This document shows, in pieces, positions 4,853-63,211 of a stretch of DNA of 64,000 nt. Source of the stretch: Spirochaetota bacterium (GTDB taxonomy: Bacteria > Spirochaetota > UBA4802 > UB4802); contig JBFLZD010000003.1 of the NCBI GenBank assembly GCA_040756435.1, positions 1 through 64,000 on the forward strand, in the 5' to 3' direction. Within the stretch, counting starts at the first letter, position 1. Each line of letters opens with the position of its first letter. Position numbers and translations under genes: made by a program. The notes below the pieces were generated by a model. The model did not search any database. It was not told where the DNA came from and was given only the letters and a program-made list of their open reading frames with translations.

Positions 4853-5710
4853 TTATTCTGACCACCGATCTGAATTGTACACCATTTTCACCTGTAATAA
4901 AAAATGATCTATATTTCTCAAATCAATTATAGGCACAACCATCATTCGTGCAAATTTATCATATTCGCGAACCTGTAATAATGCTTTTCTGTAATCATCA
5001 TTTAATGTTTCACCAATAATTATAAGTCGTGCATTGGATTGTTGATAAAACTTTAAAAGTTCCTTTGGATCATTTACCGTAAAAACATCTTCAGTGGGAA
5101 GAAAGTCAGGTGAAATTTCTATTTTGCAATCTTTTTTTCGTGAAACTATCGCACTTACCAGGTCAGTATTTTTTTTAAATCTCTCAATATAGCTGGTTTC
5201 AGCATGCGGTTGCAGATTTACAAATATAATTATTCCATTTTCTGAGTTACGATAATATATTCGTTTATTCCTATCTAAAAGGCGTTTTACTTGATTCCAC
5301 TGTTTATAATCGATTGCATCATTATGCTTGAAAACTGTAATTCTTTTCCCTGTATGCTGGTCATACGAATAAATATCTCCAATACAAATTAAATAACGTT
5401 TTCGTTTTGTTAATGTACTTACTCTATCGAGTGTCTCCAGCTTACGGTCAATAGTAATAAAATCAGCTGAAGCATAGGGTACACGATACTCAGCAGGAAA
5501 TAGTGTGGATAATAAACTATAAACTATTTCATCATATTTTATTTCAATTGCTTCAACACCAGCCTGTTCAAATCTGTAAATATCATCAATAAATATTTGA
5601 TCTGATTCATTATAGGTTTTTCCCTTTATTGTATAACTTTGTAAATATTTACAAATACAAGCGGGATTATTTTCTAAAATTTTTTTTATTTGTTCAATTT
5701 TTACTAGCAT
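4853..5710 (-). CDS. hypothetical protein, soluble
   Basis: The 285-residue product is unrecognised. It has no signal peptide or membrane segment. Hydrophobic beta-strand-like runs (KRYLICIGDIYSYD, GIIIFVNLQPHAETS, ARLIIIGETLNDDYRKAL, MMVVPIIDLRNIDHFL) suggest an alpha/beta fold. It is the first gene of a pair with 3913-4833. The SD is weak (aagaag). An ACTATCGC copy lies inside it at 5145-5152. No function can be inferred from context. Confidence 0.75.
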   Translation of the reverse strand: MLVKIEQIKKILENNPACICKYLQSYTIKGKTYNESDQIFIDDIYRFEQAGVEAIEIKYDEIVYSLLSTLFPAEYRVPYASADFITIDRKLETLDRVSTLTKRKRYLICIGDIYSYDQHTGKRITVFKHNDAIDYKQWNQVKRLLDRNKRIYYRNSENGIIIFVNLQPHAETSYIERFKKNTDLVSAIVSRKKDCKIEISPDFLPTEDVFTVNDPKELLKFYQQSNARLIIIGETLNDDYRKALLQVREYDKFARMMVVPIIDLRNIDHFLLQVKMVYNSDRWSE

Positions 5711-5826
5711 CTTCTTAATTTAACATAATTGCATTTTAAATACAATGAATACAATATTTTAACATTGAGTTAAATATTCTATTAAAATAAGTATAATAAC
5801 TAAATATTCTTTTATTCAAGTATATT

Positions 5827-5911
5827 TTATGGGCACCTCTAAAAAACTGCTTTCTACCGAAATTATTCATATAATAAAAAGCAGTTTTACCTTATTATAT
5901 TGTGCCCATAA
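5827..5911. repeat. nested inverted repeat in a 395-bp gene-free gap
   Basis: Two nested stems are visible: an outer one, tatgggcac at 5828-5836 against gtgcccata at 5902-5910, and an inner one, aaaactgcttt at about 5843-5853 against its complement at about 5878-5888. A diverged second copy of the ctctaaaaaact segment follows in inverted orientation near 5930-5946. Begins GGGCACCTCTAAAAAA, which loosely resembles the GGGGCTGTCTTAAAA ends of the MITE-like elements in this window. It may be a small non-autonomous element or a terminator. The rest of 5711-6105 shows nothing else. Confidence 0.5.
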
Positions 5912-6105
5912 GGGTACAACCAAAATAATAGTTTTTAGAAGTTCCTTTATTTATTCAATAAAAATTTAATTGAAATTATTGTACAAATTTATTATAATCG
6001 TATAGCTACTTAATTAATGACAATTTTAACATAATGTATACAATTACCCATTAAAATAGCGGGATTGGAGTCTTTAATTTCCTAATGTTTTATGAATAAA
6101 TTCAG

Positions 6106-7200: not shown

Positions 7201-7203
7201 AAA

Positions 7204-8097
7204 TCAGGATAAATCCAGCATTTTCTGCAGCGCTGTAAATGCTTTAATCCTGGTGTCCTCTTTTACAGTTACTATCGGTTGTTCATCTTGTAATGCTATT
7301 AAAATTTTTTCAAGGGTAATCTTCTTCATATTTGGGCATATAAAACCTTTTGAAGCAAGTATAAATTCTTTTTCTGGTGCAATTTTTTTCAATTTATGCA
7401 ACATTCCTTCTTCTGTCCCAACAATAATTTGCTTATGAGGAATTGTATTAATATTTTTTACCATCTGTCCTGTTGACAAAACTTTATCGGCCATGTCAAT
7501 GATTTCTGGCCTGCATTCAGGATGAACTATCACACAAGCTTGTGGATATTTTTGTTTTATAGCAATCAACTCTTCCTTTGTAAAACGATCGTGTGTTGGA
7601 CAAAATCCTTTCCAGGGAATGATTTTTTTAGATGTAAATCGTTGAACATAATGAGCCAAATTTTTATCTGGAATAAATAAAATTGTATCATTATGTATCT
7701 TATTAATAATATTAACAGCATTTGCTGATGTTACACAAATGTCAGAAACAGCTTTAACTTCAGCAGAAGAATTAATATATGTTACAACCGCAGCATCAGG
7801 ATTTTCTTCTTTCAACTTTAAAACATCTTCTGCTTCAGCCATATCCGCCATGGGACAACCTGCTGACAAATCAGGCAAAATTACTTTTTTTTGTGGCGAT
7901 AGTATATATGCTGATTCTGCCATAAAATGAACACCACAGAATACTATAACATCAGCATCGTTATCAGCAGCAATGCGCGATAGTTCTAAGGAATCGCCTG
8001 TAAAATCTGCAATATCCTGAACCTCTGGATTTTGATAATTATGTGCAAGTATTAACGCTTTTTTTTGTCTTTTCAATTTCTCAATTTCTTTTATCAA
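7204..8097 (-). CDS. nadA: quinolinate synthase A
   Basis: The product (297 residues) condenses iminoaspartate with dihydroxyacetone phosphate to quinolinate in NAD synthesis, using a 4Fe-4S cluster. Diagnostic blocks: ILAHNYQNPEVQDIADFTGDS, FCGVHFMAESAY (first cluster Cys), CVTSANAV (second), HPECRPEI, GTEEGMLH and FICPNMKK (third). The longest ORF starts at 8202, but that extension is not NadA-like and overlaps the next gene. A TTG at 8097 with SD aggggag at proper spacing gives the normal family length. No nadB or nadC is present here, so it is separated from its usual partners. An ACTATCGC copy lies inside at 7977-7984. Confidence 0.95.
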   Translation of the reverse strand: MIKEIEKLKRQKKALILAHNYQNPEVQDIADFTGDSLELSRIAADNDADVIVFCGVHFMAESAYILSPQKKVILPDLSAGCPMADMAEAEDVLKLKEENPDAAVVTYINSSAEVKAVSDICVTSANAVNIINKIHNDTILFIPDKNLAHYVQRFTSKKIIPWKGFCPTHDRFTKEELIAIKQKYPQACVIVHPECRPEIIDMADKVLSTGQMVKNINTIPHKQIIVGTEEGMLHKLKKIAPEKEFILASKGFICPNMKKITLEKILIALQDEQPIVTVKEDTRIKAFTALQKMLDLS

Positions 8098-10412: not shown

Positions 10413-11501
10413 ATGAAGCATGTAGATGAACTAACATTACTTGCCATTGCAAAAAATAGTTTACGTGAAGATGATGCAAAAAATGCACTACTTCATGTTA
10501 AACAGTGTGGTCTATGCTCTAAAAAGTTACAGATGATCCAGGCTACTATCGCCCCACAAAAATTAATTGAACCTTCACGCGATATTTTATCTTCTATACT
10601 GGAATATCATTCTAAATCAGAATCAAAAAAAGAATCATTCTTTGATGGTCTTTTCAATTTTATACAAACATATAAACGGTCTCTGGCTTTCACTACTGGT
10701 ATTGTAATTCTAAGTATTGCAGTTGTATTATTTAGCATTAAACCCAATTACAAATCCATTCCACATATATTGTATATTGCTGGTAAAACCAATAACATTG
10801 TCACCACCCAAACAATCAAAGAAGGCCACAGGATTTTATTAAACGAAAGCGATTCAGCTGTTCTGATTGCTAACAACGATATTAGGTTCATGTTGGCTGG
10901 TGCTGCTGATTTAACAGTTTCCAAGTCCCGATATAATACCACAGTAGAAAAAAAGAAATTCCAGTATATCTTAAGTAAAGGTATAGCAAACATAAAATCA
11001 TATAGTCCGCATGACACCATGCAGTATGAAATAAAAACACCGGATGCCATTGTGCAGCCATTGGGAACAGAATTTTATATTAATGTATCACCAGAAGGTT
11101 CACACATTTACATTGTTGAAGGAGCTGTAAAGATACTTAATACCGTAACTAATGAAACAGTAGAAGCTGAAACAGGAAAATTATATACAATAAGTAAAAA
11201 TGAAATTACCTCTTTTGATATTGAAAAATATGAACTCCAGTGGGTTAACGACATTGACGGATCATTTATGAATTTTTCGGATAATTTAGATTATGGTGAA
11301 TATTCTGCAATCAATTCTAATATCAATGATAATACTGGCAAAGGAAGTTCTACTGAAAACAGGCCAAAAGATGTTACTTCACCTGACATGAATAAAGAAA
11401 CCGAATCATTGAAAAATAAAAATGAAATTCTTGAAATGAAAGAATTACAGAACGAAATGCGACAATTGAAAAAAGAATCAAAGCATAAACAAGGGAAATG
11501 A
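10413..11501 (+). CDS. FecR-domain anti-sigma factor
   Basis: The 362-residue product combines a cytoplasmic zinc-finger-like anti-sigma motif (HVKQCGLC, about residues 28-35), a single membrane segment (about 88-108) and a periplasmic FecR domain (about 120-280, with the typical IKTPDAIVQPLGTEF block). The C-terminal 80 residues are a Lys/Glu-rich coiled coil. It should bind the ECF sigma factor encoded just upstream and release it on an extracytoplasmic signal. The extra coiled-coil tail is longer than in simple FecR proteins. An ACTATCGCC copy lies at 10545-10553. Confidence 0.88.
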   Translation: MKHVDELTLLAIAKNSLREDDAKNALLHVKQCGLCSKKLQMIQATIAPQKLIEPSRDILSSILEYHSKSESKKESFFDGLFNFIQTYKRSLAFTTGIVILSIAVVLFSIKPNYKSIPHILYIAGKTNNIVTTQTIKEGHRILLNESDSAVLIANNDIRFMLAGAADLTVSKSRYNTTVEKKKFQYILSKGIANIKSYSPHDTMQYEIKTPDAIVQPLGTEFYINVSPEGSHIYIVEGAVKILNTVTNETVEAETGKLYTISKNEITSFDIEKYELQWVNDIDGSFMNFSDNLDYGEYSAINSNINDNTGKGSSTENRPKDVTSPDMNKETESLKNKNEILEMKELQNEMRQLKKESKHKQGK

Positions 11502-11507
11502 TAATGA

Positions 11508-12700: not shown

Positions 12701-14533
12701 TTATTTTTTAAAAAGAAATAATTTTGAACTGTGGGGTGGTAATTCAAAAGTCTTTGATTGGGACGGTGTTTGTATATTGTTTTCAATCACAAATATTTTA
12801 GAATAATTTTTTATTATTTCCTGTTCAAGTGTTGCTTCACAGGTAGTATCATCTACATTCAATACTACACCCAATCCTTTTGAATTATAGAATGAACGTA
12901 TTGACCTCAATACATCATTACAATAAATATCTCCATCCTTTGCTATATCAAATAATGCAATTGCCTGTAATAGCATTTCACGTTCAGTTGCAGAATAATC
13001 AGGCAACCTATCGGATATTACAAGCATAGCACCAAGTGCTGCTATTACATTATACAACGTTTGTCGTTCTTCAGGTTTAAGTTTAGTTTTATGCTGGCGT
13101 ATCATAAGGCAATCAGGATCGTTAACCCAAAAACGGTTATGCATAAATGAACGGTACACACTGCTACAAATAGCTGAACGTGTTGAAATCCCTGAATCAC
13201 TGTTAAATAGCTTATCAAAAAATGTCCGACCCCACTGAGGTGCTACATCAGGACCAATACGCATTGCATCAACATACCCAATGCCTGCCTGTAATGGCAT
13301 TCCACATCCCAGAACAAATGCATTACCACTTGCCTTCCGAATACGGGCAACCGCCTGTGCAAGCGCTTCATACCTTGAAATTGTCATATTGTGCCGCACC
13401 CCTGGTAGCGCTGCAGCATATATAAAATCTAACTTGAGGTACTCATACCCCCATTCATACAATAACGTATTAATAGTATCCTCAATCCAGCTTAATACCG
13501 CAGGCTGGGTCACATCAACAGTATAATAATAGCCACCCCATACAGGATTAAAACCAGCAATAACAGGTTTCCCGTTGCTATCTTTAAGAATCCAGGATTT
13601 ATTCTCTTTAAAAATCCTTGAATCTTTTGAAACAATAAATGGCGAATACCATATCCCGGGTGTAAATCCATATCCTTTGATAGTATCAGCAATATACCGC
13701 ATGGCAGCCGTAAATGATCCTTTAACAGTAGTCCATTCACCTATTGTAGTCTGATACCCATCATCTACCTGGATAAAATCAAATGGTATGGATTGTTCTT
13801 TAGCATATTTAGCATTAAGAAGTATTTCATCTTTGGTAATGGTACTATAGTAATAATACCAGGAACACCAGCCCTTGCGTATTTTTTTATTAAATTTTGG
13901 CGATAGTTCCTGTGCAATAATCTCTGCATAATATTGTAAAATCCGCCATGCATTTCCCTGTATAATACAAATCGCATCAAGTATGTAGTCTTCCTCAGCA
14001 TCACAGAATCTATCAATATCCCATATAATGGACAACAATTTTGTGCGATAGTTATATTCAAAGGAAACAAACTGATGGAAATGCTTGTGTACGGGAAGCT
14101 GTCCAAAAACATAAGCTTCTTGCAGGTTACTATCGCCCATCACAAACAACATATCAGACTGAACTATTCCGCGGATACCTTTTGGCGGATTAGCTGCATT
14201 TTCTTGATTTGCGATGACAAATTGTGGCCAGGGTTTTCGTTTTTTTGATTCTTTAAAAAAAGGTCCTGTATATGTCCATGACTGATAACCGTTAGCAAAA
14301 CACGCTATATCATCCGAAGATAAAACCTTAAACGTCAGAATTACTTTTTGTATATACAGTCGCGTTACAGGTTTTACCACACACTGTATTGAATCTTTAT
14401 TCCGTTTATACTGTAAGTGTAAATTATCGTTTAAATAATTATTATGCTGTACAGTATGGCTTGATGCTACTTTAGATGTATCCTGTGTTTTATATAGTAT
14501 TTCTATGCTATGGTCATCAATCGTTAGCTGCAT
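12701..14533 (-). CDS. alpha-galactosidase, GH36 family
   Basis: The 610-residue product has the GH36 plan: N-terminal beta-sandwich (with FANGYQSWTYTGPF), then a TIM-barrel with GWCSWYYYYSTIT, IQVDDGYQ, GIWYSPFIV, the nucleophile Asp in YLKLDFIYAAALPG (about residue 366) and the likely acid/base Asp in RIGPDVAPQW (about 430). The C-terminal domain starts near 520. No signal peptide is seen, so it is probably cytoplasmic and hydrolyses imported alpha-galactosides. No sugar transporter or regulator lies next to it. Three ACTATCGC copies fall within it (13899, 14045, 14129). Confidence 0.92.
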   Translation of the reverse strand: MQLTIDDHSIEILYKTQDTSKVASSHTVQHNNYLNDNLHLQYKRNKDSIQCVVKPVTRLYIQKVILTFKVLSSDDIACFANGYQSWTYTGPFFKESKKRKPWPQFVIANQENAANPPKGIRGIVQSDMLFVMGDSNLQEAYVFGQLPVHKHFHQFVSFEYNYRTKLLSIIWDIDRFCDAEEDYILDAICIIQGNAWRILQYYAEIIAQELSPKFNKKIRKGWCSWYYYYSTITKDEILLNAKYAKEQSIPFDFIQVDDGYQTTIGEWTTVKGSFTAAMRYIADTIKGYGFTPGIWYSPFIVSKDSRIFKENKSWILKDSNGKPVIAGFNPVWGGYYYTVDVTQPAVLSWIEDTINTLLYEWGYEYLKLDFIYAAALPGVRHNMTISRYEALAQAVARIRKASGNAFVLGCGMPLQAGIGYVDAMRIGPDVAPQWGRTFFDKLFNSDSGISTRSAICSSVYRSFMHNRFWVNDPDCLMIRQHKTKLKPEERQTLYNVIAALGAMLVISDRLPDYSATEREMLLQAIALFDIAKDGDIYCNDVLRSIRSFYNSKGLGVVLNVDDTTCEATLEQEIIKNYSKIFVIENNIQTPSQSKTFELPPHSSKLFLFKK

Positions 14534-14982: not shown

Positions 14983-15065
14983 ATCGTCATTGCGAGGCAC
15001 GCAGTGCTATGACAATCTCATCACCCTTCACCTATCACTCATCACCCATCACATATCACCCATCA
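14983..15065. repeat. REP-like unit plus short tandem repeat
   Basis: A cattgcgaggcacgcagtgc palindromic unit at about 14986-15007 is followed by about five imperfect copies of a 10-mer related to tcacccatca (15018-15065). The tandem part runs into the last codons and stop of the PD-(D/E)XK protein gene, so repeat expansion may have reset its C-terminus. Confidence 0.7.
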
Positions 15066-16687: not shown

Positions 16688-16860
16688 TAATTGCGAGGCA
16701 CGCAGTGCCGCGGCAATCTATTTCCTGTCATTGCGAGGAGCCCCCAGGGCGACGAAGCAATCTCGCCTTTCGTAGCATTGAAAATGCTTCCCTCCGACAA
16801 GTGGTTGCTGAGCTCGTCGAAGCACTAAGTGCAAGCACTTCGTTCGCAATGACACAAGGC
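16688..16860. repeat. cluster of REP-like palindromic units in an 825-bp gene-free gap
   Basis: The units share a core of the type cattgcgag ... gaagcaatctc, with a terminal gttcgcaatgac copy in inverted orientation. They can fold into GC-rich stems in an otherwise AT-rich region. A 132-codon ORF over them is a translation of repeat sequence and is not a gene. The remainder of 16601-17425 holds no recognisable gene; a TTGACA at 17290-17295 could be a -35 box for the next gene but its -10 is poor. Confidence 0.8.
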
Positions 16861-19098: not shown

Positions 19099-19330
19099 AG
19101 TAACTATCTCCTTTATAAAATCATACGCAAATGGTAACAAATATTGACGTGATATTCCATATTTTCAGAAGAAATCTGAATACAATGTCACAATATATGC
19201 GATAATTATTGTTAAGTATAGCTTCATGTGCAATATTTGCAATAAATTTGCTTGATAAAATTATGCAAGGATTTTTTGAAAAATTTCATTAATTATTTCT
19301 AAAATGTGGAATTTTTAACAAAATACGAAA

Positions 19331-24712: not shown

Positions 24713-24829
24713 TTACGACTGCCCAACATCAAAAGCTTTTTAACAGCAACTATCGCCCATAAAAAATATAAAACTTCTTTAATCAGAGATTTTTTAAAAA
24801 TTTATTGCAAACTCCAAAATCATATAATT

Positions 24830-24858: not shown

Positions 24859-25287
24859 ATGAAGAACGTAATTGTTGCATTACCAGTGTTTCAGGACCGA
24901 CTATCGCCACTTTTGGATGAGGCACGCAGGTTTGTCGTTTTAACATTGAATGAAAATGCTATTTCAGAACGCACAGTGATTGATATTGATGAACAAAGTC
25001 CGTTTATAAGGATTGAGCGACTTAAAGAAATGGGAGTAACCGTGTTATTATGCGGAGCTTTAAGCGATGTGCTGGCCAGGTTTATTCTTGATAGGGAAAT
25101 TAAGCTATATTCGTGGCTCAATGGCAGCGTTGAGGAAGTGGTAGCACAGTACATCAATGGAACATTAGCTTACAAATGCATGCACTATGTAACAAAAGGA
25201 CAAACTTGCAGGCGCCACAGGCGTGGATGGAAATTACATCAAAGGAGTAATCATTATGAAGATAGCAATACCGGCACAACAGAATAG
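24859..25287 (+). CDS. NifX/NafY-type (dinitrogenase FeMo-cofactor) family protein
   Basis: The 142-residue product starts MKNVIVALPVFQDRLSPLLDEARRF, like the small dinitrogenase iron-molybdenum cofactor domain (about residues 3-105), which binds metal clusters or cofactor precursors. The C-terminal 30 residues are basic and Cys/His-containing (TCRRHRRGW). The start avoids an upstream in-frame codon that would lie before the sigma-54-type promoter. There is no SD. It overlaps the next gene by 32 bp. ACTATCGCC occurs at 24900-24908. Confidence 0.8.
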   Translation: MKNVIVALPVFQDRLSPLLDEARRFVVLTLNENAISERTVIDIDEQSPFIRIERLKEMGVTVLLCGALSDVLARFILDREIKLYSWLNGSVEEVVAQYINGTLAYKCMHYVTKGQTCRRHRRGWKLHQRSNHYEDSNTGTTE

Positions 25288-25615
25288 TTTAGACAGCCAA
25301 GTGGATGAACATTTTGGAAGAGCAAAAGGATTCATTGTGTATGATTCTGATACAGGAAGCTATACATGGATAGAGAATAAGCAGAGTGTTCAATCAACGC
25401 AGGGTGCTGGAATACAATCTGCAAAGAATGTGATAGATAATGGTGCAGAAGTTCTTATTGCTACAAACGTAGGACCAAAAGCATATTCAATTTTACGTTC
25501 GTCAGGAGTGGAAGTGTATGTATGCGATAGTATGCTGGTATCACAGGCAATTGCTGAGTACAAAGCTGGAAAATTGGTAAAAGCAACTGAAGCTATTGTT
25601 GAGAGTCACTGGTAA
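25256..25615 (+). CDS. NifX/NafY-type family protein
   Basis: The 119-residue product is a classic single-domain member: MKIAIPAQQNSLDSQVDEHFGRAKGFIVYD, TQGAGIQSAKNVIDNGAEVLIATNVGPKA and a C-terminal GKLVKATEA. Family members bind iron-molybdenum or other metal clusters or carry them between proteins. The ATG at 25256 has SD aaaggag. It is second in the NifX/MinD/Mrp locus. No nitrogenase structural genes are seen, so nitrogen fixation should not be assumed. Confidence 0.9.
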   Translation: MKIAIPAQQNSLDSQVDEHFGRAKGFIVYDSDTGSYTWIENKQSVQSTQGAGIQSAKNVIDNGAEVLIATNVGPKAYSILRSSGVEVYVCDSMLVSQAIAEYKAGKLVKATEAIVESHW

Positions 25616-26118: not shown

Positions 26119-26199
26119 CACCAAAAGTAATTATGTGCGATAGTTATTAGTTAAAAGCTTTATTGCATTACATTACTATTTCTAAAAGGAGGTAACACT

Positions 26200-28659: not shown

Positions 28660-29534
28660 TGACTAACACTATTAAACAGTTGGCGATAGTAAGCGGTAAA
28701 GGTGGTACCGGTAAAACAAGCATTGCTGCATCATTTGCTAAACTGGCAAAACAGCGCATTGTGGTTGATTGTGATGTTGATGCTTCAAATATGCCTCTTG
28801 TGCTTCCTCACACTATTATAGAGGAGATCCCTTTTTTGGGGGAAAAAAAAGCTGTCATATCTCAGGACCGATGCAGAGGGTGTGGCGATTGCGTCATTTA
28901 TTGCAGATTCAATGCAATCAAAGATTTTTATGTCGTTGAGCCCGTGCTTTGTGAGGGGTGTGCAGTGTGCACAATGATGTGCCCTTATGAAGCAATTGAT
29001 ATGGTAGACAATCAATCAGGCACTGTAGTGATTTCACAATCTGACGATCAGCCATTTCTTTTTGCAAAGATGGGTGTTGGCCAAGGCAACTCCGGTAAAT
29101 TAGTTTCCGAATTGCGTGAAAAGGCAAAATCAATTGCAGAAGAAGATAATTACAATCTTATTATCATTGATGGTCCACCGGGCATTGGTTGCCCTGTCAT
29201 TTCATCTATTACAGGAGTATCCCATGTTCTTATTGTTACCGAACCTACATTAAGTGGCATGCATGATTTGGAAAGAATAATACAGTTAACCAAACATTTT
29301 AGAATTAATGCTTCAGTGTGTATTAATAAATCTACTATATCATCAGACAATATAGAAAAAATTAAGGAAATTTGCTCAAAGTTTGATATTGCAGTAATTG
29401 GTACAATACCATTGGATATGGATTTTGTAAAAGCGCAGATAGCAGGGAAAACGATTGTTGAATATCCCAATTCTGTTGCATCACAGGCTATAAAAAGTTT
29501 ATGGGAAAGAATTTCACAATTACTGAATTTATAG
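28659..29534 (+). CDS. MinD-superfamily P-loop ATPase with inserted ferredoxin domain (second copy)
   Basis: The 291-residue paralogue has IVSGKGGTGKTS, then CRGCGDCVIYCRFNA and CEGCAVCTMMCPYEA (about residues 68-110), and DGPPGIGCPV. The two ATPases are encoded head-to-tail with a 1-nt overlap and probably form a heterodimer, as in similar loci of anaerobes (inference). An ACTATCGCC copy (28682-28690) falls within the codons just before its Walker A. Confidence 0.92.
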   Translation: MTNTIKQLAIVSGKGGTGKTSIAASFAKLAKQRIVVDCDVDASNMPLVLPHTIIEEIPFLGEKKAVISQDRCRGCGDCVIYCRFNAIKDFYVVEPVLCEGCAVCTMMCPYEAIDMVDNQSGTVVISQSDDQPFLFAKMGVGQGNSGKLVSELREKAKSIAEEDNYNLIIIDGPPGIGCPVISSITGVSHVLIVTEPTLSGMHDLERIIQLTKHFRINASVCINKSTISSDNIEKIKEICSKFDIAVIGTIPLDMDFVKAQIAGKTIVEYPNSVASQAIKSLWERISQLLNL

Positions 29535-39457: not shown

Positions 39458-39970
39458 TTACTTATAATACTTCCCAAACTGTAGTTTGCGTAACAATGGG
39501 GCAACTATCGCCCCTAAATAACGCAATGCAATATAGTTAAATTTTAAATCAATAAGCTCAATAAGATTACCATCCATATCCTGCATAAACACCCATTCAT
39601 TGGGGCCAGTTTTCTGTGGCTGGCATAAAAATGTTACACCTTTATCTTTTAGCTTTTTATACCATTTCTTCACATTCCGTACATCCAGGGTAATATGTGT
39701 TAAACCAATTTTATTCCAGCATACCTTATCAGAAGGGATAGCAGGAGTAAATTCAAATATTTCAAGCACCGCACCACCTGGTGTACGCAAAAAGCCAAGA
39801 CGTAATTTTGTATTTTTCAAGCCATAAAGGCTATACAATGCTTCAACCTGTTTTTCATCCATAGTTTCCTCAGCAACCAGTGGGAACCTGAACATTTCCC
39901 AATACCATTTTACTGCTTTTTCAAAATTACTTACCGTAATTCCAACATGGCTTAATGATTTTACCTTCAT
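39458..39970 (-). CDS. VOC (glyoxalase/dioxygenase) superfamily protein
   Basis: The 170-residue product has one full VOC module: SHVGITVSNFEKAVKWYWEMF (about residues 6-26, with metal-ligand His), TPGGAVLEIFEF, IGLTHITLDVRNVKKWYKKL (second His) and GNLIELIDL (Glu ligand). The family includes glyoxalases, methylmalonyl-CoA epimerases and dioxygenases, all metal-dependent. The ATG at 39970 with SD gggaggt is preferred. It is the last gene of the SCP2/aminotransferase/transketolase operon, which suggests an isomerase-like or lyase-like step on its product (inference). ACTATCGCCCC occurs at 39504-39514. Confidence 0.85.
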   Translation of the reverse strand: MKVKSLSHVGITVSNFEKAVKWYWEMFRFPLVAEETMDEKQVEALYSLYGLKNTKLRLGFLRTPGGAVLEIFEFTPAIPSDKVCWNKIGLTHITLDVRNVKKWYKKLKDKGVTFLCQPQKTGPNEWVFMQDMDGNLIELIDLKFNYIALRYLGAIVAPLLRKLQFGKYYK

Positions 39971-42712: not shown

Positions 42713-42805
42713 ATATATCCTCCTTGTTTACAGTAATTTTTCATAAAATTCTTATGGGCGATAGTTACTGCTAAGATAACCCCATTCATGGTACAATTGC
42801 AAGCA

Positions 42806-45083: not shown

Positions 45084-46025
45084 TTATATTATTGTTATTA
45101 ATGGTACATATTTTTTTTCATATAGAACAAACTCAAGTGATTGTCGCTTGCCATGTTCATCAATATACTGCGCCTGAAATATATCACTTATTTCGGCACC
45201 ATTTTTTAGTTCAATGTATCCATGCTCAATTAATTGAAGCAAAAATGTTCTGATAATACCAAACGACATCTTCTGGATATTCACATCGCCGTGATGTTCA
45301 TGATCATACAAACCTAAATTAACATCAGCAACCTTACAGTTGGATAACACCGCATCTATATTTATTCCTGTTTCAACACCATACATCTGCCAGAAGCTCA
45401 CTTTTGTAAAAAAGGAAAGCGTACCAGCAACTTCCCCGCTTAATGGATAGGCTAATTTACGCAGTGGTTCTAAATTACTATGAACTATCGCCGAAAACAA
45501 AGGTTGTGCTACATACTTTTTTACCCTGCCCATTTCCCGCCAAAAACTTGCTTTGGCAAAATCATACCCTTGCAACACTGCGCCAGCCAGTCCTAACACA
45601 AAATGTGTTCCAAAATAGTGTGCAACCACATCAGCATCCAGAAAAACTATAACTGTATTATGGATATCTGCCTTATATCCAGTAATAAGATAATATAGGG
45701 ATCTACGCATGTCGGCACCCTTACCTTTTTCAAGGCCCATATCTGGCACATTAATTGCATTACAAACTATGACCTTTGCTCTGCTGCTTGCTTCCTTAGC
45801 TTTTATCTCGGTCAATTCTTCTTTATCATCATCGAGACGTCGGTGAGACACGAATATACCATCAACACTTTGTAATGTATCGATAAGTCGTATTTTTTGA
45901 TATATAAGTTCTGCCTCACGCTCACCAAAAGTGGAAAATATCACATAAATTTTTCTATTTCCCTTTATCTTTACAAGGCTTTCATCATTGAAATCAGTAG
46001 CTTCAAAATAATCGATTATACTCAT
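45084..46025 (-). CDS. GT-A fold glycosyltransferase, glucosyl-3-phosphoglycerate synthase-like
   Basis: The 313-residue product has GREAELIYQ-type N-terminus, a nucleotide-sugar DXD-like motif in VIVFLDADVVAHYFGTHFV (about residues 128-146) and YPLSGEVAGTLSFF (about 200-213), which is the signature of GT81 (GpgS/MpgS-type) enzymes. It could make a glucosyl- or mannosyl-glycerate precursor or related glycoside. There is no signal peptide. It stops 43 bp from the palindrome controlling the next operon. ACTATCGCC occurs at 45484-45492. Confidence 0.78.
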   Translation of the reverse strand: MSIIDYFEATDFNDESLVKIKGNRKIYVIFSTFGEREAELIYQKIRLIDTLQSVDGIFVSHRRLDDDKEELTEIKAKEASSRAKVIVCNAINVPDMGLEKGKGADMRRSLYYLITGYKADIHNTVIVFLDADVVAHYFGTHFVLGLAGAVLQGYDFAKASFWREMGRVKKYVAQPLFSAIVHSNLEPLRKLAYPLSGEVAGTLSFFTKVSFWQMYGVETGINIDAVLSNCKVADVNLGLYDHEHHGDVNIQKMSFGIIRTFLLQLIEHGYIELKNGAEISDIFQAQYIDEHGKRQSLEFVLYEKKYVPLITII

Positions 46026-49944: not shown

Positions 49945-51960
49945 TTACGGTACAAAATATCCAGCCCATTCTGTACCCTTCTGGCCTTTGTATGAAACAT
50001 TGACAGTAAGATCTGACCACCATCCCTTCAATGACTTCATTTTAAACGTTGAATAAATTAATACATAGCGATAATCGTTTGCTTTTTTTATTGCATCATA
50101 CACTGTTCGTAATCCATCCAATTCACTTGCTTTATAAATTGCGCCACCTGTTTCCTGGGCTATACGCATTAAAATTGGGGATTTTGTTTTTAATGTAAGA
50201 ATATACACTGGAATAAAATGCGATTTTGCATAATCAATGATAATATCAGCAGAATATGCTTTAAAATCTTGTTCGTTTGCATCACCATCTGTAATGAGTA
50301 TTACACCACGCCGCGACATTTCAGGCAAGACATCGCTGATTGCAGTATAAAGTGCTTTGCCAATATCACGCCCTTTGCCATAATCAAATGACTTTAATAC
50401 TTTTAATGCTCTGCGCCTACTCCAATCATACTGATTGGCAACCCAGGTATCATCAGCAAAGTTTATTATTTTTAGTTGATCGTTTTTATGCATTTTTTGC
50501 AATATAAACTCGGCAAGCCATGGCACGTCATTATGATAGTTTTTCAATGTACCTGAACGGTCAACACACATAACCATTGAAGCTGCTGGCATCATGTTTT
50601 TTAGATAATCAGCACTCATATTGGTGATTGTTGCCCCATCTTCAATGATAGTGAAGTTTTCCTTTGTTAATCCATAGATTGGTCTGCCATAACGGTCACG
50701 GATATTGCAATACACTGCAACAACAGGAAATTTTTTTGCATCAACATTAGTTACTTCTACTTCAATGTTGCTTATCTGTTGCTGAAGAGGTGAAAACATA
50801 TATATGGCTTCATTTTTATTGCTACATGTATATACAAACCCATTATCATCCATAACAGCCGAAGTAAGATGATAAAATTTCTTTTTCCCTTCCCAGCTAA
50901 CAAACCACTGTGATTGACCTGTTTCAAAGTTATACATAAAAAGGCCTTTTTTTTCATCACTCACAGCCATGAGGTTACCCTGTACAAAGATTCCACGGGG
51001 TACAGCAAACTCCGATGGTGTAAGGTTCTCAACAAAATTACCTGAATCATCAAAGACAGCTATCCGTTTGTTGTTTGTATCAGTCACATATACGTTTTCA
51101 TGCCGTACTGCCACATCAGTTGGTTTATTCAGTTGACCTTCATATTCACCAAATTGTCCAAATGCCAGTATGAATCGTCCATCTAAACCAAACTTTTGAA
51201 CACGGTGATTGCCACTGTCCACTACATATAAGGAACTATCGCCGCCAAAACAAACCCCCTCAGGGCCGTTAAACTGGCCTTCCTGATTACCTGTGCTGCC
51301 AATTGTTTTAACTACTTTGCCATCAGTGTTAATAATAAACACTTTATTATTTGCAAAATCAGTTACAGCCAGAAGTTCCGACTTATAATCTATACCATAG
51401 AGCTTACCGTCAAGATTGTATGTGCGGGTAAAAATGCCTTCACCATTAGGATCAAGCTTTACAAGTTTGCCATTGGAAAAAGATGTGATATACATGTTTT
51501 TATCATTATCAATGGCAATATCAATGGGTGATGAAAAACGGAACCTTCCTAAATCAACAGGTAAATATGAAGCTGTTTCAATAAGTTCAATTGGTTGTAC
51601 AAACGAGCTGTACAACGAACCCCTGAAATTAATCATATCAATTTTATTTTGAATAAGAGGATTTTCTTTGGTCATATCAAGCAGGATTTGCCATTGTTGA
51701 AGTGCCAGGTTTGTATACCCTGCCAATTTGTAGGCACGTGCTAAATATTCATTTGCGGTATAGTACTCAGGATACACTTCTAATGCTTTTCTGAAAAATT
51801 CAATAGCGGCAAGATAATGCATTTCATTAAAGTGATACATCCCCTTGGCCACTTCACTTTTGGCTTTCTGGAAAATAGCAACCTGTTTATCTAAGGTTAT
51901 ACCAATGGTTGGAATGAATGTAATAAGTACTATTAAAACTACTATTATTTTTTTTAGCAC
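49945..51960 (-). CDS. TPR / NHL beta-propeller / VWA exported protein
   Basis: The 671-residue product has a signal peptide (about residues 1-20), two or three TPR units (about 25-105), an NHL-type six-bladed propeller (about 120-400; repeats like GQFNGPEGVCFGGDSSLYVVDSGNHRV, here noted by the GPEGV and VVDSGNHRVQKF cores), and a VWA domain (about 470-650) with MIDAS-like DRSGT and ITDGDANEQD. Start is GTG at 51960 with SD agagga. It is probably a periplasmic or surface protein that binds other proteins. It has no clear operon partner. Confidence 0.82.
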   Translation of the reverse strand: MLKKIIVVLIVLITFIPTIGITLDKQVAIFQKAKSEVAKGMYHFNEMHYLAAIEFFRKALEVYPEYYTANEYLARAYKLAGYTNLALQQWQILLDMTKENPLIQNKIDMINFRGSLYSSFVQPIELIETASYLPVDLGRFRFSSPIDIAIDNDKNMYITSFSNGKLVKLDPNGEGIFTRTYNLDGKLYGIDYKSELLAVTDFANNKVFIINTDGKVVKTIGSTGNQEGQFNGPEGVCFGGDSSLYVVDSGNHRVQKFGLDGRFILAFGQFGEYEGQLNKPTDVAVRHENVYVTDTNNKRIAVFDDSGNFVENLTPSEFAVPRGIFVQGNLMAVSDEKKGLFMYNFETGQSQWFVSWEGKKKFYHLTSAVMDDNGFVYTCSNKNEAIYMFSPLQQQISNIEVEVTNVDAKKFPVVAVYCNIRDRYGRPIYGLTKENFTIIEDGATITNMSADYLKNMMPAASMVMCVDRSGTLKNYHNDVPWLAEFILQKMHKNDQLKIINFADDTWVANQYDWSRRRALKVLKSFDYGKGRDIGKALYTAISDVLPEMSRRGVILITDGDANEQDFKAYSADIIIDYAKSHFIPVYILTLKTKSPILMRIAQETGGAIYKASELDGLRTVYDAIKKANDYRYVLIYSTFKMKSLKGWWSDLTVNVSYKGQKGTEWAGYFVP

Positions 51961-52053: not shown

Positions 52054-54870
52054 CTATTTGCGGGATAAAATCTGTTTTAAAAATTGTCCTGTATATGAAC
52101 CTGAAGCCTTAGCCACATCTTCTGGTGTGCCCTGGGCAATGATACGCCCACCTGCATCACCACCTTCTGGCCCTAAGTCAATGATCCAGTCAGCACATTT
52201 TATTACATCTAAATTATGCTCTATAACAATGACAGTATTGCCCTTTTCAACTAAACTTTGTAATACATCAACAAGCTTTTCCACATCAGCAAAGTGCAAT
52301 CCAGTAGTTGGCTCATCAAGGATATACAGTGTGTTGCCTGTAGCGCGTTTTGATAGCTCAGTAGATAGTTTAACCCTTTGTGCCTCACCACCTGACAGTG
52401 TTGTTGCAGGCTGACCCAATTTGATATATCCCAGCCCTACCCGTTTTAATGTTTCAAGCTTAGATTTTATTGATGGGATATTAATAAAAAACTCATAGGC
52501 TTCATCAACAGTCATTTCCAGTACTTCATATATATTTTTCCCTTTATAACGAACTTCCAATGTTTCATGGTTATAGCGTTTACCTTTACATACTTCACAG
52601 GTTATATAAACGTCGGGTAAAAAATGCATTTCTATCTTTTTAATGCCATCACCCCAGCATGCCTCACATCTGCCTCCTGTTACATTGAATGAAAACCTCC
52701 CCGGCTTGTACCCTCTAATCTTTGAATCAGGTAAATTTGCAAAAAGCTCACGGATTGGCGTAAAGGTACCGGTATAAGTAGCGGGATTGGAACGTGGTGT
52801 TCTTCCAATGGGTGACTGGTCAACATCTATTACTTTGTCAATATATTCTATCCCTTCTATCTTATTGAATTTACCGGGATAGTCTTTGCTGCGCATCTTC
52901 AATGATGCCAGTGCCTTATATAAAATATCAATTACTAAAGTAGATTTTCCTGAACCGGAAACACCGGTAACACAGGTAAACACCCCTAAAGGGAATGACA
53001 CATCTATTGACTTCAAATTATTTTCTGCCGCACCCCGTATAGTTAAATACTTTTCAGTCTTTCTGCGCCTTGACGGTGTTTTTATATACCTCTTCCCACG
53101 TAAATATAATCCAGTAATTGATGTTTCATTTTGTTCTATTTCCCGCGGTGTCCCCTGCGCTACCACATAGCCACCATCAAGCCCTGCACCAGGACCCAGG
53201 TCAACAACATAGTCTGATTCACGGATTGTCTCTTCATCATGTTCAACCACAATCACCGTGTTGCCAATATCACGCAATTCTTTTAATGTATCTAAAAGCT
53301 TTTTGTTGTCACGCTGATGCAGACCAATGCTTGGCTCATCAAGAATATACAGCACACCCGTTAAACCTGACCCAATCTGCGTGGCAAGCCGTATGCGCTG
53401 TGCTTCACCCCCAGACAATGTCCCTGCCGCACGGTCAAGGGTCAGATAATCAATACCCACATTGGAAAGAAATTGCAAACGTGCTCGTATTTCTTTAAGT
53501 ATCTGGCGGGCAATTGTCATTTGAGTTTCAGACATCGACAAGTCATTAAAAAATTTTACTGCTTCTTTAATGGACAGTGCACTAATATCAGCAATATTCT
53601 TATCAATAACTTTCACTGCTAAGCTTTCAGGCCTTAGTCTTTTGCCGCCACATGCATCACATACTCTATTGCGCATAAAGCCTTCCATCCATTCGCGCAT
53701 CTCATCAGATTGTGTTTCTTTATAACGACGCATTAAATTTGGTATCACACCTTCAAATTCTTTTGTAAATTTATATTGCGCTTCAAATCGCTCAATAGAA
53801 TAGTCAAATTTTTTACCATTTGATCCATATAAAACAATATTCTGAATTTGTTTTGGCAGCTTTTTCCACGGCGTATAGGGATCAAACTTAAGATGCCGTG
53901 ACAGCGTCAGCACCTGTTCCTGATACCAGTAGCTGGTAGTTTTACCCCATACCGCCAGTGCCCCATCCATCAGTGATTTATCGGGATTGGCAACAATAAG
54001 CTCTGGATCAAACTGCATGATAAATCCAAGGCCATCACAGGTTGGACAGGCACCATATGGACTATTAAAGGAAAACATGCGGGGCGATAGTTCCGGTAAT
54101 GAAATATCACAGTCAGGACAGGTCATTTTGGTGGAAATTAACTGCTCGTTATCATCTATGATTAATATTACCTGACCATCAGCTAATTCAATTGCAGTCT
54201 CAATTGAATCTGATAATCGTGAACGGATATTCTCTTTAAGTACTATCCTGTCAATGATGACCTCAATGGAATGTTTTTTATTTTTATCCATTTTTATTGT
54301 ATCATCAAGTGAATACACCTGCCCATCAACTCTGACTCGCGAATACCCTTGCTGCTTGAATTTTTCAAACATATCCTGATACAAACCCTTGCGCCCACGC
54401 ACAACCGGAGCAAGTACCTGTATTTTTGTCCCGGCACTATGGGTAAGTACGTTTTCAACAATCTGGTCAATGGTTTGTGAGGTTATGGGTTTTCCGCACT
54501 TATAACAGTATGGCACTCCAACCCGTGCAAACAGTAAACGCAGGTAATCATGAATTTCGGTTACAGTACCCACTGTTGAACGAGGATTGCGGTGAGTGGT
54601 TTTCTGTTCAATGGATATTGCAGGTGAAAGCCCTTCAATAAGGTCAACATCAGGTTTTTCCATCTGGCCCAAAAACTGCCTTGCATACGCCGACAACGAT
54701 TCAACATACCGTCGTTGCCCTTCAGCATAAATGGTATCAAAAGCTAAAGAGGACTTCCCTGATCCGGAAAGTCCTGTTATAACAACCAGCTTTTCCCGTG
54801 GAATGTCAATAGAAATGTTTTTTAAATTGTGCTCACGGGCACCTTTGATGCGAATATATTGCTGACTCAT
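52054..54870 (-). CDS. uvrA: excinuclease ABC subunit A
   Basis: The 938-residue product is full-length UvrA, the damage-sensing ATPase of nucleotide excision repair. Walker A motifs occur at [14 protein letters not shown] (about residue 33) and [10 protein letters not shown] (about 640), ABC signatures at LSGGEAQRI (about 484 and 826), and zinc-finger Cys pairs at CPDCDISL...CPTC and CEACWGDG...CEVC. Its start overlaps the stop of the acidic zinc-ribbon gene by 4 nt (ATGA), so they are coupled. A palindrome 130 bp upstream of that gene may be its operator. Confidence 0.97.
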
Positions 54871-55391: not shown

Positions 55392-56042
55392 TTATTTTTT
55401 TATAGATTTTGGTTTTACCAATTTTGCAGGTGGTTGCTTCATTGTTTTTTGTTCTGGCTCTGATTTTTTCATTTCAATAGCATCAGGCAATGTATCCAAC
55501 GTGCTCAATAGTATATCCCACACACCAAAAAAGCCACCTGCTGAAGAATACTCTTTAAATTCCACAGTTAAGGTTTTATTAACAATAAATTCACGAGTAA
55601 TGTTAAGTACAACAGTGCTGTTTTTTATTGTCATTTCACTGAATGCAAGTTGCTTAACAGGTTTGTTATTACAGGATATAACACACAAAGCATCAATGGG
55701 TGTTTTTTCAGGATGATCAAAAGTCACAAAATTTATATGCAGGTAGTATGAACTCTCAGTTAAATTTTCAAAGACAATCCTGGAGCCATATTTTGAAATA
55801 AACCAGGCACAGTTATCAATAACTGGCTTATCATCGTAATTTACGTTACAATAATATACTTTACCCCAATCGGAAATTTTTTTGTAATCTAACGCTGTTA
55901 TCCAGTTCCATTGTACCAAAAAACTATCCTTTGGAGCAAGCTGGTACACTTTAATTATGGGCGATAGTTCCTGCGAATGGCCATTGCCATATAGCATGGC
56001 TGCCAGTAAAATCACACTTACTGTAAATATCATGTATCTCAT
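55392..56042 (-). CDS. exported hypothetical protein
   Basis: The 216-residue product has a signal peptide (MIFTVSVILLAAMLYGNGHSQ; cleavage near residue 24) and an unrecognised mature domain with beta-rich sequence (VFENLTESSYYLHINFVTFD, STVVLNITREFIVNKTLTVE) and a Lys/Pro-rich C-terminal tail (PPAKLVKPKSIKK). Start at 56042 replaces a longer ORF that reads into the compositional island upstream. The SD is weak. Function is unknown. Confidence 0.7.
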   Translation of the reverse strand: MRYMIFTVSVILLAAMLYGNGHSQELSPIIKVYQLAPKDSFLVQWNWITALDYKKISDWGKVYYCNVNYDDKPVIDNCAWFISKYGSRIVFENLTESSYYLHINFVTFDHPEKTPIDALCVISCNNKPVKQLAFSEMTIKNSTVVLNITREFIVNKTLTVEFKEYSSAGGFFGVWDILLSTLDTLPDAIEMKKSEPEQKTMKQPPAKLVKPKSIKK

Positions 56043-58922: not shown

Positions 58923-59001
58923 TTAGTATTAATAGTTATAAAAAACTGTCCCATTTACCATCAGTTGACCTTTTCCGGTAACTATCGCCCAAAATATTAT
59001 A

Positions 59002-60015: not shown

Positions 60016-60068
60016 AGAGTACTCCAAATATAAAATATGTGCGATAGTTACTGTTAATACATCGAAGT

Positions 60069-60518
60069 TTATAATTCATTATAGCTTTGTAGCAATCGGT
60101 ACAGATAAACCACCCACACCCCTAACGGGAAATCGGTTATAAAAATAATACAATTTGCAAGATTGTTTGCGTTATTAGTGTACACAAACCCAGATATAAA
60201 AGCAAGCAAACCACATACAGATGATGTAAATTTCATAGTTGCTAAAGGTATTACCATAGTACTATATCGTTCTGCATTTTTATAGAGCAGCAATGAACAT
60301 ACAGTTACCCCTGCCATCATAGATACACTTAATATAGTGTAAAATTGACTTTGTTGGTGTGCCAGGGGAAGTGATGGAAACAATTTTTGCGATAGTTCAT
60401 TGATAATAGCCATAAGTTGTGGTGTAAAAAAAATAAAGACAAAGGTGGTAATAACAAACGCAATTGCATACACAAGCCCTGTTATTTTTATCAGATTAAG
60501 CAATTTTTCTTTATTCAT
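60069..60518 (-). CDS. four-helix membrane protein
   Basis: The 149-residue product has four predicted membrane segments (about residues 10-32, 58-78, 90-110 and 118-140) and short loops. The family is unknown. SD (gggg) precedes the ATG. It lies 53 bp upstream of the CrtC/AttH-like gene in the same direction, and an ACTATCGC copy (60041-60048) is in the gap. A second copy (60389-60396) is inside it. Confidence 0.75.
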   Translation of the reverse strand: MNKEKLLNLIKITGLVYAIAFVITTFVFIFFTPQLMAIINELSQKLFPSLPLAHQQSQFYTILSVSMMAGVTVCSLLLYKNAERYSTMVIPLATMKFTSSVCGLLAFISGFVYTNNANNLANCIIFITDFPLGVWVVYLYRLLQSYNEL

Positions 60519-60559
60519 ATATTCCCCCTTAAACCATTACATTGTAAAGAAGCTTTTCC

Positions 60560-60960: not shown

Positions 60961-61012
60961 TCAAAAAACATCAAAATGACATATTAAAGAACTTCATACA
61001 CATTAAATACAA

Positions 61013-61681
61013 TTATTTACCATTCTCTAAATAGTTTTTTATGCCATATAGATAATCTTTTATACTCTTTTTTGTAAGGCTGTTTTCCACAAACCCTGGA
61101 ACAGGCACTGAAACTTCAACAACCGGAGCATAGTACAGTAGGGTGGTATTGTCATCCATTGATATGCAATATTGATATCCTTCAATATTTCTAATTCCAC
61201 TACTGTGGGGATTAATATGATTTGTAATGTTATACAACTTTATATCATCATCCGATAGCAATCGCCATTTCTGAAAATAATTGTTTTTTTGATTTTGTAC
61301 TATGAGTGTATATCTAAATTTTAAAAATGTAACATGTATCTGACCCTCAATGACAGATGTAGTGCCATTTATTTTTGTTAACACCTTATAATAATCCAGA
61401 CCATCGACATAGTGGGACATATGTTCCCAATCAAGAATACATTTCCACACTTCTTCAACAGGTTTTTGTATCAGTATTGCACCAACAACACGCGCCATCT
61501 CACCTTCCTGTGTTTTTTGTTTATATTTTTTTATAATACTATTACCCGCTTTTAACGCGTTAATATCCTCTTTACTTAAATCCGAAGGGAAATTATTAGA
61601 ATATGCATTATAATAAACAATAATTAAACTTACTATAAGTACAATCATCGTTTGTATAATTTTGTTAAATTTAAAGTGCAT
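61013..61681 (-). CDS. exported or membrane-anchored START/SRPBCC-fold protein
   Basis: The 222-residue product has an N-terminal hydrophobic segment (about residues 10-28) followed by a START-like domain (about 60-215; KPVEEVWKCILDWEHMSHYV, EGQIHVTFLKFRYTLIV, LLYYAPVVEVSVPVPGFV). The family binds hydrophobic ligands. It is 24 bp after the GMC oxidoreductase stop in the same direction, so the START-like protein may bind the oxidase substrate. SD is aggaag. Confidence 0.78.
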   Translation of the reverse strand: MHFKFNKIIQTMIVLIVSLIIVYYNAYSNNFPSDLSKEDINALKAGNSIIKKYKQKTQEGEMARVVGAILIQKPVEEVWKCILDWEHMSHYVDGLDYYKVLTKINGTTSVIEGQIHVTFLKFRYTLIVQNQKNNYFQKWRLLSDDDIKLYNITNHINPHSSGIRNIEGYQYCISMDDNTTLLYYAPVVEVSVPVPGFVENSLTKKSIKDYLYGIKNYLENGK

Positions 61682-61705
61682 AGGTCTTCCTAAATAATGT
61701 ACTCT

Positions 61706-63211
61706 TTACTTTTGCTTTTTTAGATCATCTGCAATATGCTGCGAAATCTTTGTTGCAAGTGCCATTATTGTTATCTGTGGATTTACTCCCAGTGATGTTG
61801 GTACAATGCTGCCATCGGCAACATACAGATTGTCCGTGTTGAAACATTTGCCATTGCTATCAACTACTCCCCAGTTACTATCGCCACCCATACGACATGT
61901 ACCCAATGGATGAAATGCAAATACTTCAGGTATGTGCGTTCTTTTTATGGTGTGCATTTTAAGTTTAACAACATCATCCATTGAATGTATCATTGGGAAT
62001 GAAGCGATAGGGGTAAATATTTTTTTTGCTCCTGCCGCTATGAAAACTTCGGACAAATATGCTATACCCTTTTTTAATGTTTCGATATCCTGTGTATTCA
62101 GATTATACCATGATAACGGCGTATCCAGCGAACCAAAAACCTTTCCCTGACCGGTGTCATGTACCATAACCCCAAATGCAGCAATATGCGAAAATTGCTG
62201 TGCCAGCTCAAAAAATTCATTCCCAATCCCTGGCAACGATGCAGTTAATATTGATGGGTGCACAAATATGCCTTCCAACATAATGCCTTCATCTGCATAA
62301 TCATCAATATATGCACCCTGTGAAACACCAACCCAACCATTAACTACTTCTTCCATCAGAGCAACAACACGCGAACATGGATGTATCTGGAGGTGTTTGG
62401 CAAGATGTTTATTCTTAACACCACTTTTTTTAAGCAATAATGGCGTAATCATTGTACCACATGCGCAGACTATGATTTTTGCTTTCACAATGCACTGTGC
62501 AATATTTTCCCCTTTGTCACCAATAACATTACATTGCACAGCATATGCTTTATTGTTTTTAAAGAGTATCTTTTGTGCTTTGCAATGAGTAAGCAATTGA
62601 GTATTATATTGCAATGCACGTGGGATGTAGCTTACCTCGGTACTTTGTTTTGCTCCTTCAACACAGCCAAACTGGCATGTACCACACCCCTTGCAATTTT
62701 TAACATTGTGCTTTAATGGCTTGCAATGTAAACCCAATGCATCAGCACCGCGTTTGATAATCTTTGCACAGTTACCCAGGACATCCCAGGATAATTCCGT
62801 CACATTAATAATCTTCTCTACTCTTTCAAAATATGGTTCCAAGTTTTTGTAATCTATATTAACCCGCAAATTTTCTTTCCACTGCATAATAATATGTTCT
62901 GGCGTACGAAAACATGTTGCCGAATTAATTGCGGTTGTACCACCAACACATCTGCCGGTAGGAATGGAAATTGGAGGAATGCCAAATGAAACAGTACTAC
63001 CTGCCCCACGCCACATTGTTTTCATATTCTTTAAAGGCTTTCCATCATAATCGTTTGTTGTATAATAGCCACCTTCTTCAATGACAATGACACTGTAACT
63101 CATCAAAGCTAACTCATATGCTACAACAGCGCCACCAGCTCCGCTGCCTATAACACACACATCAGCATCAAATGAATTATACTTTTTATAATCGTTTTGT
63201 GAGTATATCAT
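61706..63211 (-). CDS. GMC-family FAD oxidoreductase
   Basis: The 501-residue product has the FAD Rossmann motif VIGSGAGGAVVAYELA (about residues 19-34), GGTTAINSATCFR, a Cys-rich insert CKGCGTCQFGC (about 175-185), and the C-terminal FHPLGTCRMGG and VADGSIVPTSLGVNPQITIMALA blocks with the catalytic His region. Relatives oxidise alcohols, including sterols and sugars. Part of an operon with a small protein upstream and the START-like gene downstream. The Cys motif is notable; it may bind an Fe-S cluster. ACTATCGCC occurs at 61877-61885. Confidence 0.9.
   Translation of the reverse strand: MIYSQNDYKKYNSFDADVCVIGSGAGGAVVAYELALMSYSVIVIEEGGYYTTNDYDGKPLKNMKTMWRGAGSTVSFGIPPISIPTGRCVGGTTAINSATCFRTPEHIIMQWKENLRVNIDYKNLEPYFERVEKIINVTELSWDVLGNCAKIIKRGADALGLHCKPLKHNVKNCKGCGTCQFGCVEGAKQSTEVSYIPRALQYNTQLLTHCKAQKILFKNNKAYAVQCNVIGDKGENIAQCIVKAKIIVCACGTMITPLLLKKSGVKNKHLAKHLQIHPCSRVVALMEEVVNGWVGVSQGAYIDDYADEGIMLEGIFVHPSILTASLPGIGNEFFELAQQFSHIAAFGVMVHDTGQGKVFGSLDTPLSWYNLNTQDIETLKKGIAYLSEVFIAAGAKKIFTPIASFPMIHSMDDVVKLKMHTIKRTHIPEVFAFHPLGTCRMGGDSNWGVVDSNGKCFNTDNLYVADGSIVPTSLGVNPQITIMALATKISQHIADDLKKQK

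Follow-up and report, generated by a model that had tools for sequence, protein, structure and literature searches.

The stretch of DNA analysed here, a window of 64,000 nucleotides from a Spirochaetota bacterium (contig JBFLZD010000003.1 of assembly GCA_040756435.1, hereafter G000), carries an octamer, ACTATCGC, in 25 exact copies counted on both strands (12 +, 13 -). The first-pass annotation had listed 23 copies; all of these sites were real, but those at 7896 (-) and 25524 (-) had been missed, and four minus-strand positions were off by one and are corrected here to 13900, 28683, 35168 and 54084. On a crude open reading frame (ORF) map five of the 25 copies were intergenic, the same number as first reported: 24749..24756 (+), 26137..26144 (-), 42758..42765 (-, adjoining an aminotransferase gene), 58981..58988 (+) and 60041..60048 (-). 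The remaining copies lie in genes. Two of them, 7896..7903 (-) and 7977..7984 (-), are 81 bp apart in the same NadA gene, and another two, 14045..14052 (-) and 14129..14136 (+), are 84 bp apart and in opposite orientation. Copies at 33733..33740 (+) and 35168..35175 (-) are both in the BadF/CoA-activase gene and that at 61877..61884 (+) in a GMC oxidoreductase gene; further genic copies were found at 13900..13907 (-), 24900..24907 (+), 25524..25531 (-), 28683..28690 (-) and 39504..39511 (+). When compared with four other genomes of the genus (G001 to G004), the genic copy at 5145..5152 (+) was present as the same word in all four, and several others corresponded to the variant GCTATCGC in G004: 10545..10552 (+, gene with a FecR domain), 31379..31386 (+, 4Fe-4S protein gene), 45484..45491 (+, the variant also in G001), 51235..51242 (+, NHL-repeat/VWA gene), 54084..54091 (-, uvrA, the variant also in G003), 55961..55968 (-) and 60389..60396 (-). 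Eighteen copies extended to ACTATCGCC, one more than claimed, whereas the earlier statements that the preceding base is usually A (17 of 25) and that the window shows no strand bias were borne out. The shorter ACTATCG occurred 36 times in the window, leaving 11 seven-base copies beyond the 25 full octamers, exactly the number of extra variants noted before.

The over-representation of the word is real and stronger than first reported. None of 100 dinucleotide shuffles of the window reached 25 copies (mean 0.53, maximum 3), and the whole G000 assembly (3,609,771 bases in 126 contigs, 99.65% complete) contained 1,327 copies (669 + 658), about 1 per ~2.7 kb, versus 106 (47 + 59) of the same word read backwards; the corresponding values for AACTATCGCC were 483 versus 6. 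The comparison with a Markov model that had been proposed as a check pointed the same way: in 418,599 bases of G000 an order-3 model predicted 9.4 copies and 155 were seen, the top z-score of all octamers with at least 12 copies. In a maximal-order Markov test the octamer did not stand out, the shorter words contained in it being enriched as well. The ratio of perfect to singly mismatched copies of AACTATCGC, 0.63, was the highest among 728 9-mers with at least 100 copies (median 0.066). We also observed a second, much rarer enriched word, GCTCTGACCCC / GGGGTCAGAGC, in the G000 (contigs C1-C3) and G002 samples, with CTCTGACCCC seen 16 times versus 0.1 expected in 418.6 kb of G000 and CTCTGACCC 14 times versus 0.2 in G002; it is probably part of another dispersed repeat.

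Alignment of the 155 G000 sites on the core revealed that conservation goes beyond the octamer, which is the centre of a non-palindromic motif of ~33 bp composed of a T-rich tract, CAGkA, RCTATCGC and an A/T-rich tract, without dyad symmetry. Information spans the region between about -15 and +18. On the 5' side there are purines near -15, a T-rich segment from -12 to -8 and then C(-5), A(-4), G(-3), G/T(-2) and A(-1). After the core A C T A T C G C come two positions (+8 and +9) that are C or A, and from +10 to about +18 a segment rich in A/T and poor in G. One tract on each side is thus 10-14 bp away from the middle of the core, about one helical turn; the tracts are weaker in G004. An iterated 40-position profile held 18.2 bits in G000, 17.2 in G002, 15.9 in G004 and 18.6 in G001 with G003, and the G000 profile matched 275 sites in 418.6 kb versus 29 in the reversed sequence.

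The distribution of the word was analysed in 1,286,386 bases of G000 (47 pieces, 36%) containing 453 copies. All 60 windows of 20 kb held at least one copy, with a variance-to-mean ratio of 0.82 that did not differ significantly from Poisson (P = 0.17), and the coefficient of variation (CV) of the gaps between copies, 0.93, indicated near-random spacing. The G-rich strand, taken as leading, carried 224 of 430 copies (P = 0.41), without replication-strand bias; the strand was deduced from the GC skew of each piece, and pieces with |GC skew| <=0.03 (23 of the 453 sites) were excluded. According to a simple ORF map 361 copies were coding, 86 intergenic and 6 at gene edges, the latter being kept apart; the intergenic excess was slight and weak (P = 0.030), as was the orientation bias within genes (202 copies along the gene direction, 159 opposite, P = 0.027). 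All five stop-free reading frames were used, whereas the sixth, which contains a stop, was not; when sites were assigned by their centre in the 418.6-kb analysis, 1 of 131 fell in the stop-giving frame. A codon or peptide bias as the cause of the enrichment was rejected, since copies are present between genes as well as in five of the six frames, and the only unused frame has a stop. The six exact pairs less than 30 bp apart were all inverted and intergenic, and in every one of them the two copies base-pair as a hairpin in the predicted fold. In the 1.29 Mb, neighbouring copies were in opposite orientation in 237 cases and in the same orientation in 169 (P = 0.0009), an excess that held at all distances and was not confined to the close pairs.

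The word was enriched in the five genomes of the genus examined and in none of 34 other genomes of the order. Besides G000, copies versus control amounted to 1151/83 in G001, 1023/125 in G002, 1118/110 in G003 and 651/107 in G004. G005, from another genus of the same family and only 71% complete, had 30 copies versus 46 of the control, and none of 33 further genomes of the order was enriched, the largest ratio being 48 to 29. No other enriched word of comparable strength was detected in 80-104 kb each of G005, G006, G010 and G014, and the same word-discovery scan recovered ACTATCGC from an 80-kb piece of G000. The nearest relatives of the window aminotransferase came from the metagenome-assembled genomes (MAGs) A05DMB-I-13 (Spirochaetota, 96% identity), R1_Bin_METABAT__127_1 (uncultured bacterium, 91%) and UBA2205 (86%), the last of which NCBI places in unclassified Spirochaetia; the next ones, at 67-70%, were mostly from Spirochaetes and more distant ones from many phyla. 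A scan of viral contigs with an exact 19-position pattern yielded at least 120 stretches (1.03 Mb) with at least 192 RCTATCGC sites versus 78 control words; at least 120 of those sites were the matches that had selected the stretches, and viral contigs as carriers of the word were rejected.

Within the genus the word is conserved in place. At alignable positions of G000 contig C3 it was unchanged in 15 of 23 cases in G001, 21 of 28 in G003, 7 of 16 in G004 and 10 of 18 in G002, that is, 2.6-5.8 times as often as comparable octamers (four G/C and a CpG), whose retention was 0.255, 0.152, 0.114 and 0.095, respectively; incompletely alignable sites were left out of these counts and the word's own copies were kept in the control. 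Binomial P values were 7e-5 (G001), 3e-12 (G003), 1e-3 (G004) and 1e-6 (G002), the four tests not being independent because the relatives share history. Among word-bearing three-codon stretches with unchanged amino acids, although numbers were small, all bases were kept in 5 of 8 (G001), 12 of 15 (G003), 3 of 4 (G004) and 4 of 6 (G002), compared to 0.44, 0.26, 0.22 and 0.18 outside the word. Out of 85 aligned orthologous octamers, 53 were identical, 30 had 1-4 substitutions and 2 were gapped; with 83 of 85 ungapped, copies, which lie in unrelated genes, are gained and lost by substitution and not by insertion.

One species of the genus, represented by G004, differs in its preferred form of the word. 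The numbers of GCTATCGC and ACTATCGC were 815/651 in G004, compared to 273/1327 in G000, 371/1151 in G001, 271/1023 in G002 and 302/1118 in G003, and at sites with CTATCG in both genomes and A first in G000, G004 had G in 8 of 16 (background A-to-G rate 0.077). The first base of the core has thus moved in favour of G in G004, a dialect. The G+C content of G004 is no higher than elsewhere in the genus (0.347 in its sample versus 0.351-0.373 in the other four). The G-type core is probably derived, because G002, the most distant of the five (UvrA 90% identical to that of G000, the others 95-97%), is of the A type.

The analysis directly shows the motif and how dense and conserved it is, that its copies originate by substitution, that other genomes examined are not enriched in it, and that one species has a dialect. 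To account for these findings we tentatively propose, with somewhat less than even confidence, that the word may be an independent, uptake-signal-like mark of self of this genus. A single sequence-specific DNA-binding protein would read the ~33-bp motif throughout the genus, during DNA uptake, and fragments carrying it would be preferentially taken up and recombined. Copies born by point mutation would then be kept and spread, in genes and between them and in both orientations, so that uptake bias, and not selection on each copy, would maintain the word. The features generally expected of uptake signals that were found comprise a genome-wide excess, no orientation bias, dialects and inverted intergenic hairpin pairs. 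The first-pass annotation had already compared the word to a DNA-uptake sequence; the anatomy fits this best, but the gene content does not, ComEA and a type IV pilus ATPase not having been found.

Candidate reading machinery was sought by Pfam searches over 13 genomes (G000-G012). ComEC (PF03772) was present in 12 of them, including four of the five of the genus, and DprA (PF02481) in all 13, one G000 copy having the DprA winged helix. The prepilin motif (PF07963) gave four matches each in G000, G001, G003 and G004 and none in G002 or G005. The prepilins of G000 are situated where contig C38 ends, together with T2SSG, T2SSF, T2SSE and secretin genes, and the G003 locus, judged from an ORF list, has a gene order similar to this secretion operon. 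The T2SSE ATPase family (PF00437) produced one strong match per genome in 11 of the 13, among them four of the five of the genus, and otherwise weak matches (E >1e-4); no strong match was found in G002 or G005. One conceivable route would be that a pseudopilus of the type II secretion system passes DNA on to ComEC and DprA. No PilT homologue is reported to have been identified for com and Flp filaments either (PMC6370729), so that a filament with one motor may in principle serve uptake. For this route to hold, an assembly gap would have to account for the failure to find the operon in G002.

Several observations weigh against uptake as the purpose of the word. The PF00437 search found no type IV or Tad pilus motor, because the sole strong ATPase of G000 sits in the type II secretion operon, and neither a type IV pilus with a receptor minor pilin nor the full ComEA, ComEC and DprA set was found. 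ComEA was not found in G000, which had no HHH_3 (PF12836) match, and the other four genomes of the genus had six weak or partial matches with no convincing ComEA among them, the only one above cut-off being in G004 (39 of 65 positions, in a 427-aa frame); the strong HHH_3 matches of G007, G011 and G012 lie in frames of 710-773 aa, which we take to be Tex. The PF03772 search did not find ComEC in G004. G002, 93% complete and strongly enriched in the word, yielded neither ATPase nor prepilins, yet its four congeners have both; this may reflect loss of the operon or an assembly gap. Sequences flanking the G000 secretion operon and ComEC had no match in the sampled pieces of G002 and G004, respectively. 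Gaps in MAGs may explain single absences, but it is less likely that ComEA and pilus motors were overlooked in all five genomes. Conversely, there are members of the order that have ComEC, DprA and the ATPase and lack the word. Divergence from the relatives, where a trace of biased recombination was sought, was not lower near the sites. Perfect copies are fewer than singly mismatched ones (the above ratio being <1), whereas for the H. influenzae type of uptake signal sequence (USS) the ratio is described as >1 (PMC1626085). With the looser core CTATCG, 13 pairs lay within 30 bp, ten inverted (six intergenic, four genic) and three not (one intergenic, two genic), so that 6 of the 13 were genic. 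As to termination, the role described for inverted USS pairs in H. influenzae (PMC5217627), neither of the two inverted pairs of one G000 piece (L290) was listed by a terminator scan of that piece. Finally, genes with atypical codon usage were richer in copies (0.508 versus 0.181 per kb). A depletion in foreign-looking genes was thereby rejected, this codon-usage proxy pointing the opposite way, although it goes with G+C content and may fail to capture foreign origin.

The main rival explanation, likewise raised by the first-pass annotation and considered unlikely here, is that the word is the site of an abundant, genus-specific chromosome-organising protein acting on the nucleoid or in segregation and is kept by selection on architecture. 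Such a role would need no uptake machinery, and it would agree with the lack of orientation bias, with a spread leaving no 20-kb window empty (its evenness not being significant) and with a long non-palindromic motif whose A/T tracts would suit a bending protein. It sits less well with the dialect, as the same base change at hundreds of sites in G004 is hard to obtain by selection site by site, and with the fact that most copies are genic and nearly randomly spaced. No organising protein is known to us that has more than 1,000 such sites without a preferred orientation.

Rather improbable, if still conceivable, is that a DNA methyltransferase, either orphan or linked to restriction, targets the word, as first-pass annotation had also considered, and that this maintains it in the way that seems to apply to HIP1 in cyanobacteria. 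Three DNA methyltransferase genes, from candidates that a short motif search had picked out, were seen in the sampled 36% of G000, a type I HsdM gene (piece L286, contig C18, 12642-14183) and genes of Eco57I/TaqI-like and N6_N4 enzymes (piece L296, contig C28, 12030-13784 and 17959-18702), and HIP1 abundance is described as tracking methyltransferases (PMC4390886). However, graded information over ~33 bp together with A/T tracts far exceeds the site of such an enzyme, and the length and asymmetry of the motif weaken any link to methylation; the dialect, moreover, is a shifted proportion of two co-occurring forms. HIP1 and its two described derivatives are palindromic (PMC4390886) and the word is not, nor does it contain GATC or CGATCG, so the likeness to HIP1 first suggested proved to be poor.

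That the word, as an over-represented octamer about every 2.7 kb, is a recombination hotspot of the Chi kind, recognised by RecBCD or AddAB, is largely refuted and appears very improbable: Chi sites would be expected mainly on the leading strand, and the unbiased strand counts contradict this. We know of no Chi motif with a 33-bp extension. That the word merely rides on a mobile repeat, or on a gene or peptide motif present many times, can practically be dismissed, for although G000 has dispersed repeats of ~130 bp (28, 16 and 29 matches in the 1.29-Mb sample), their three representatives in the window lack the core word, 436 of 451 sites (two of the 453 had no full flanks) have 150-bp flanks unlike those of any other site, leaving only 15 in groups with similar flanks and excluding the single repeated gene family once envisaged, and the copies are, as shown above, ungapped in alignments and found in five frames and between genes.

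These repeats belong to three mutually unrelated families, represented in the window at ~5825-5955, ~16722-16853 and ~19279-19411 (28, 16 and 29 matches in that order), of which the second contains GTCATTGCGAGG. The window also carries, at 15056-16600 (-), an AAA-ATPase-like/PDDEXK_9 gene with similar copies at contigs C13, C61 and C2 of G000; it lies in a stretch interrupting the alignment with G001 and looks like a mobile or expanded family.

Returning to an uptake-signal-like mark, a more specific version, that this would be a third, independently evolved uptake signal, in Spirochaetota, whose reading involves neither ComEA nor a type IV pilus (but a pseudopilus of type II secretion that feeds ComEC, or another receptor), is appreciably less probable and, in our opinion, rather doubtful. 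No paper was found for four forms of the word, and no uptake word in Spirochaetota was described in the titles and abstracts, mainly of open-access literature, among the matches listed. If the proposal were true, self-marking would have arisen a third time by another route, in an unrelated phylum and in cells where the pilus that Pasteurellaceae and Neisseriaceae both use was not found; alternatively, genome-wide words may be kept for a wholly different purpose. The motif and its two-form dialect provide a ready bait for finding the protein that reads them.

Compared with known systems, the word shares with Chi its nature as an over-represented octamer and differs in the lack of a leading-strand bias. 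It shares with HIP1 (GCGATCGC) that of a highly iterated octamer of unproven function, HIP1 being a palindrome with methyltransferase sites and the spirochaete word a non-palindrome with a long context. The DNA uptake sequence (DUS) of Neisseriaceae is likewise a genus-wide word with species dialects one base apart (PMC3630211), although it has a CTG core, which the spirochaete word lacks, and its bearers have a type IV pilus, which was not found in the spirochaete genus. The DUS has no flanking motifs and occurs about once per kb (PMC1626085), whereas the spirochaete word is flanked and less dense. The USS of Pasteurellaceae also has a short, frequent core without strand bias that is often genic, with AT-rich flanks at about helical spacing and up to 32 bp in total (PMC1626085, PMC12616744, PMC2346458), and with subclade-specific variants and inverted pairs (PMC1626085, PMC12616744, PMC5217627, PMC2346458). 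The differences are that the USS core is AAGTGCGGT or ACAAGCGGT and not ACTATCGC, that both its AT-rich segments are 3' of the core instead of one tract on each side, that its perfect copies outnumber those with one mismatch, and that the spirochaete genus belongs to another phylum, Spirochaetota, in which neither type IV pilus ATPase nor ComEA was found. With an anatomy like that of uptake signals and a machinery unlike theirs, the word is tentatively read as working like an uptake signal and yet is not filed as a USS or DUS. Even the co-occurrence of two forms has a counterpart, as S. muelleri (Neisseriaceae) is described as carrying two DUS forms one base apart in near-equal numbers in one genome (PMC3630211). 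Judged on its sequence, the spirochaete word is closer in anatomy to the uptake signals of these two families, Pasteurellaceae and Neisseriaceae, than to Chi, to HIP1 or to a mobile repeat.

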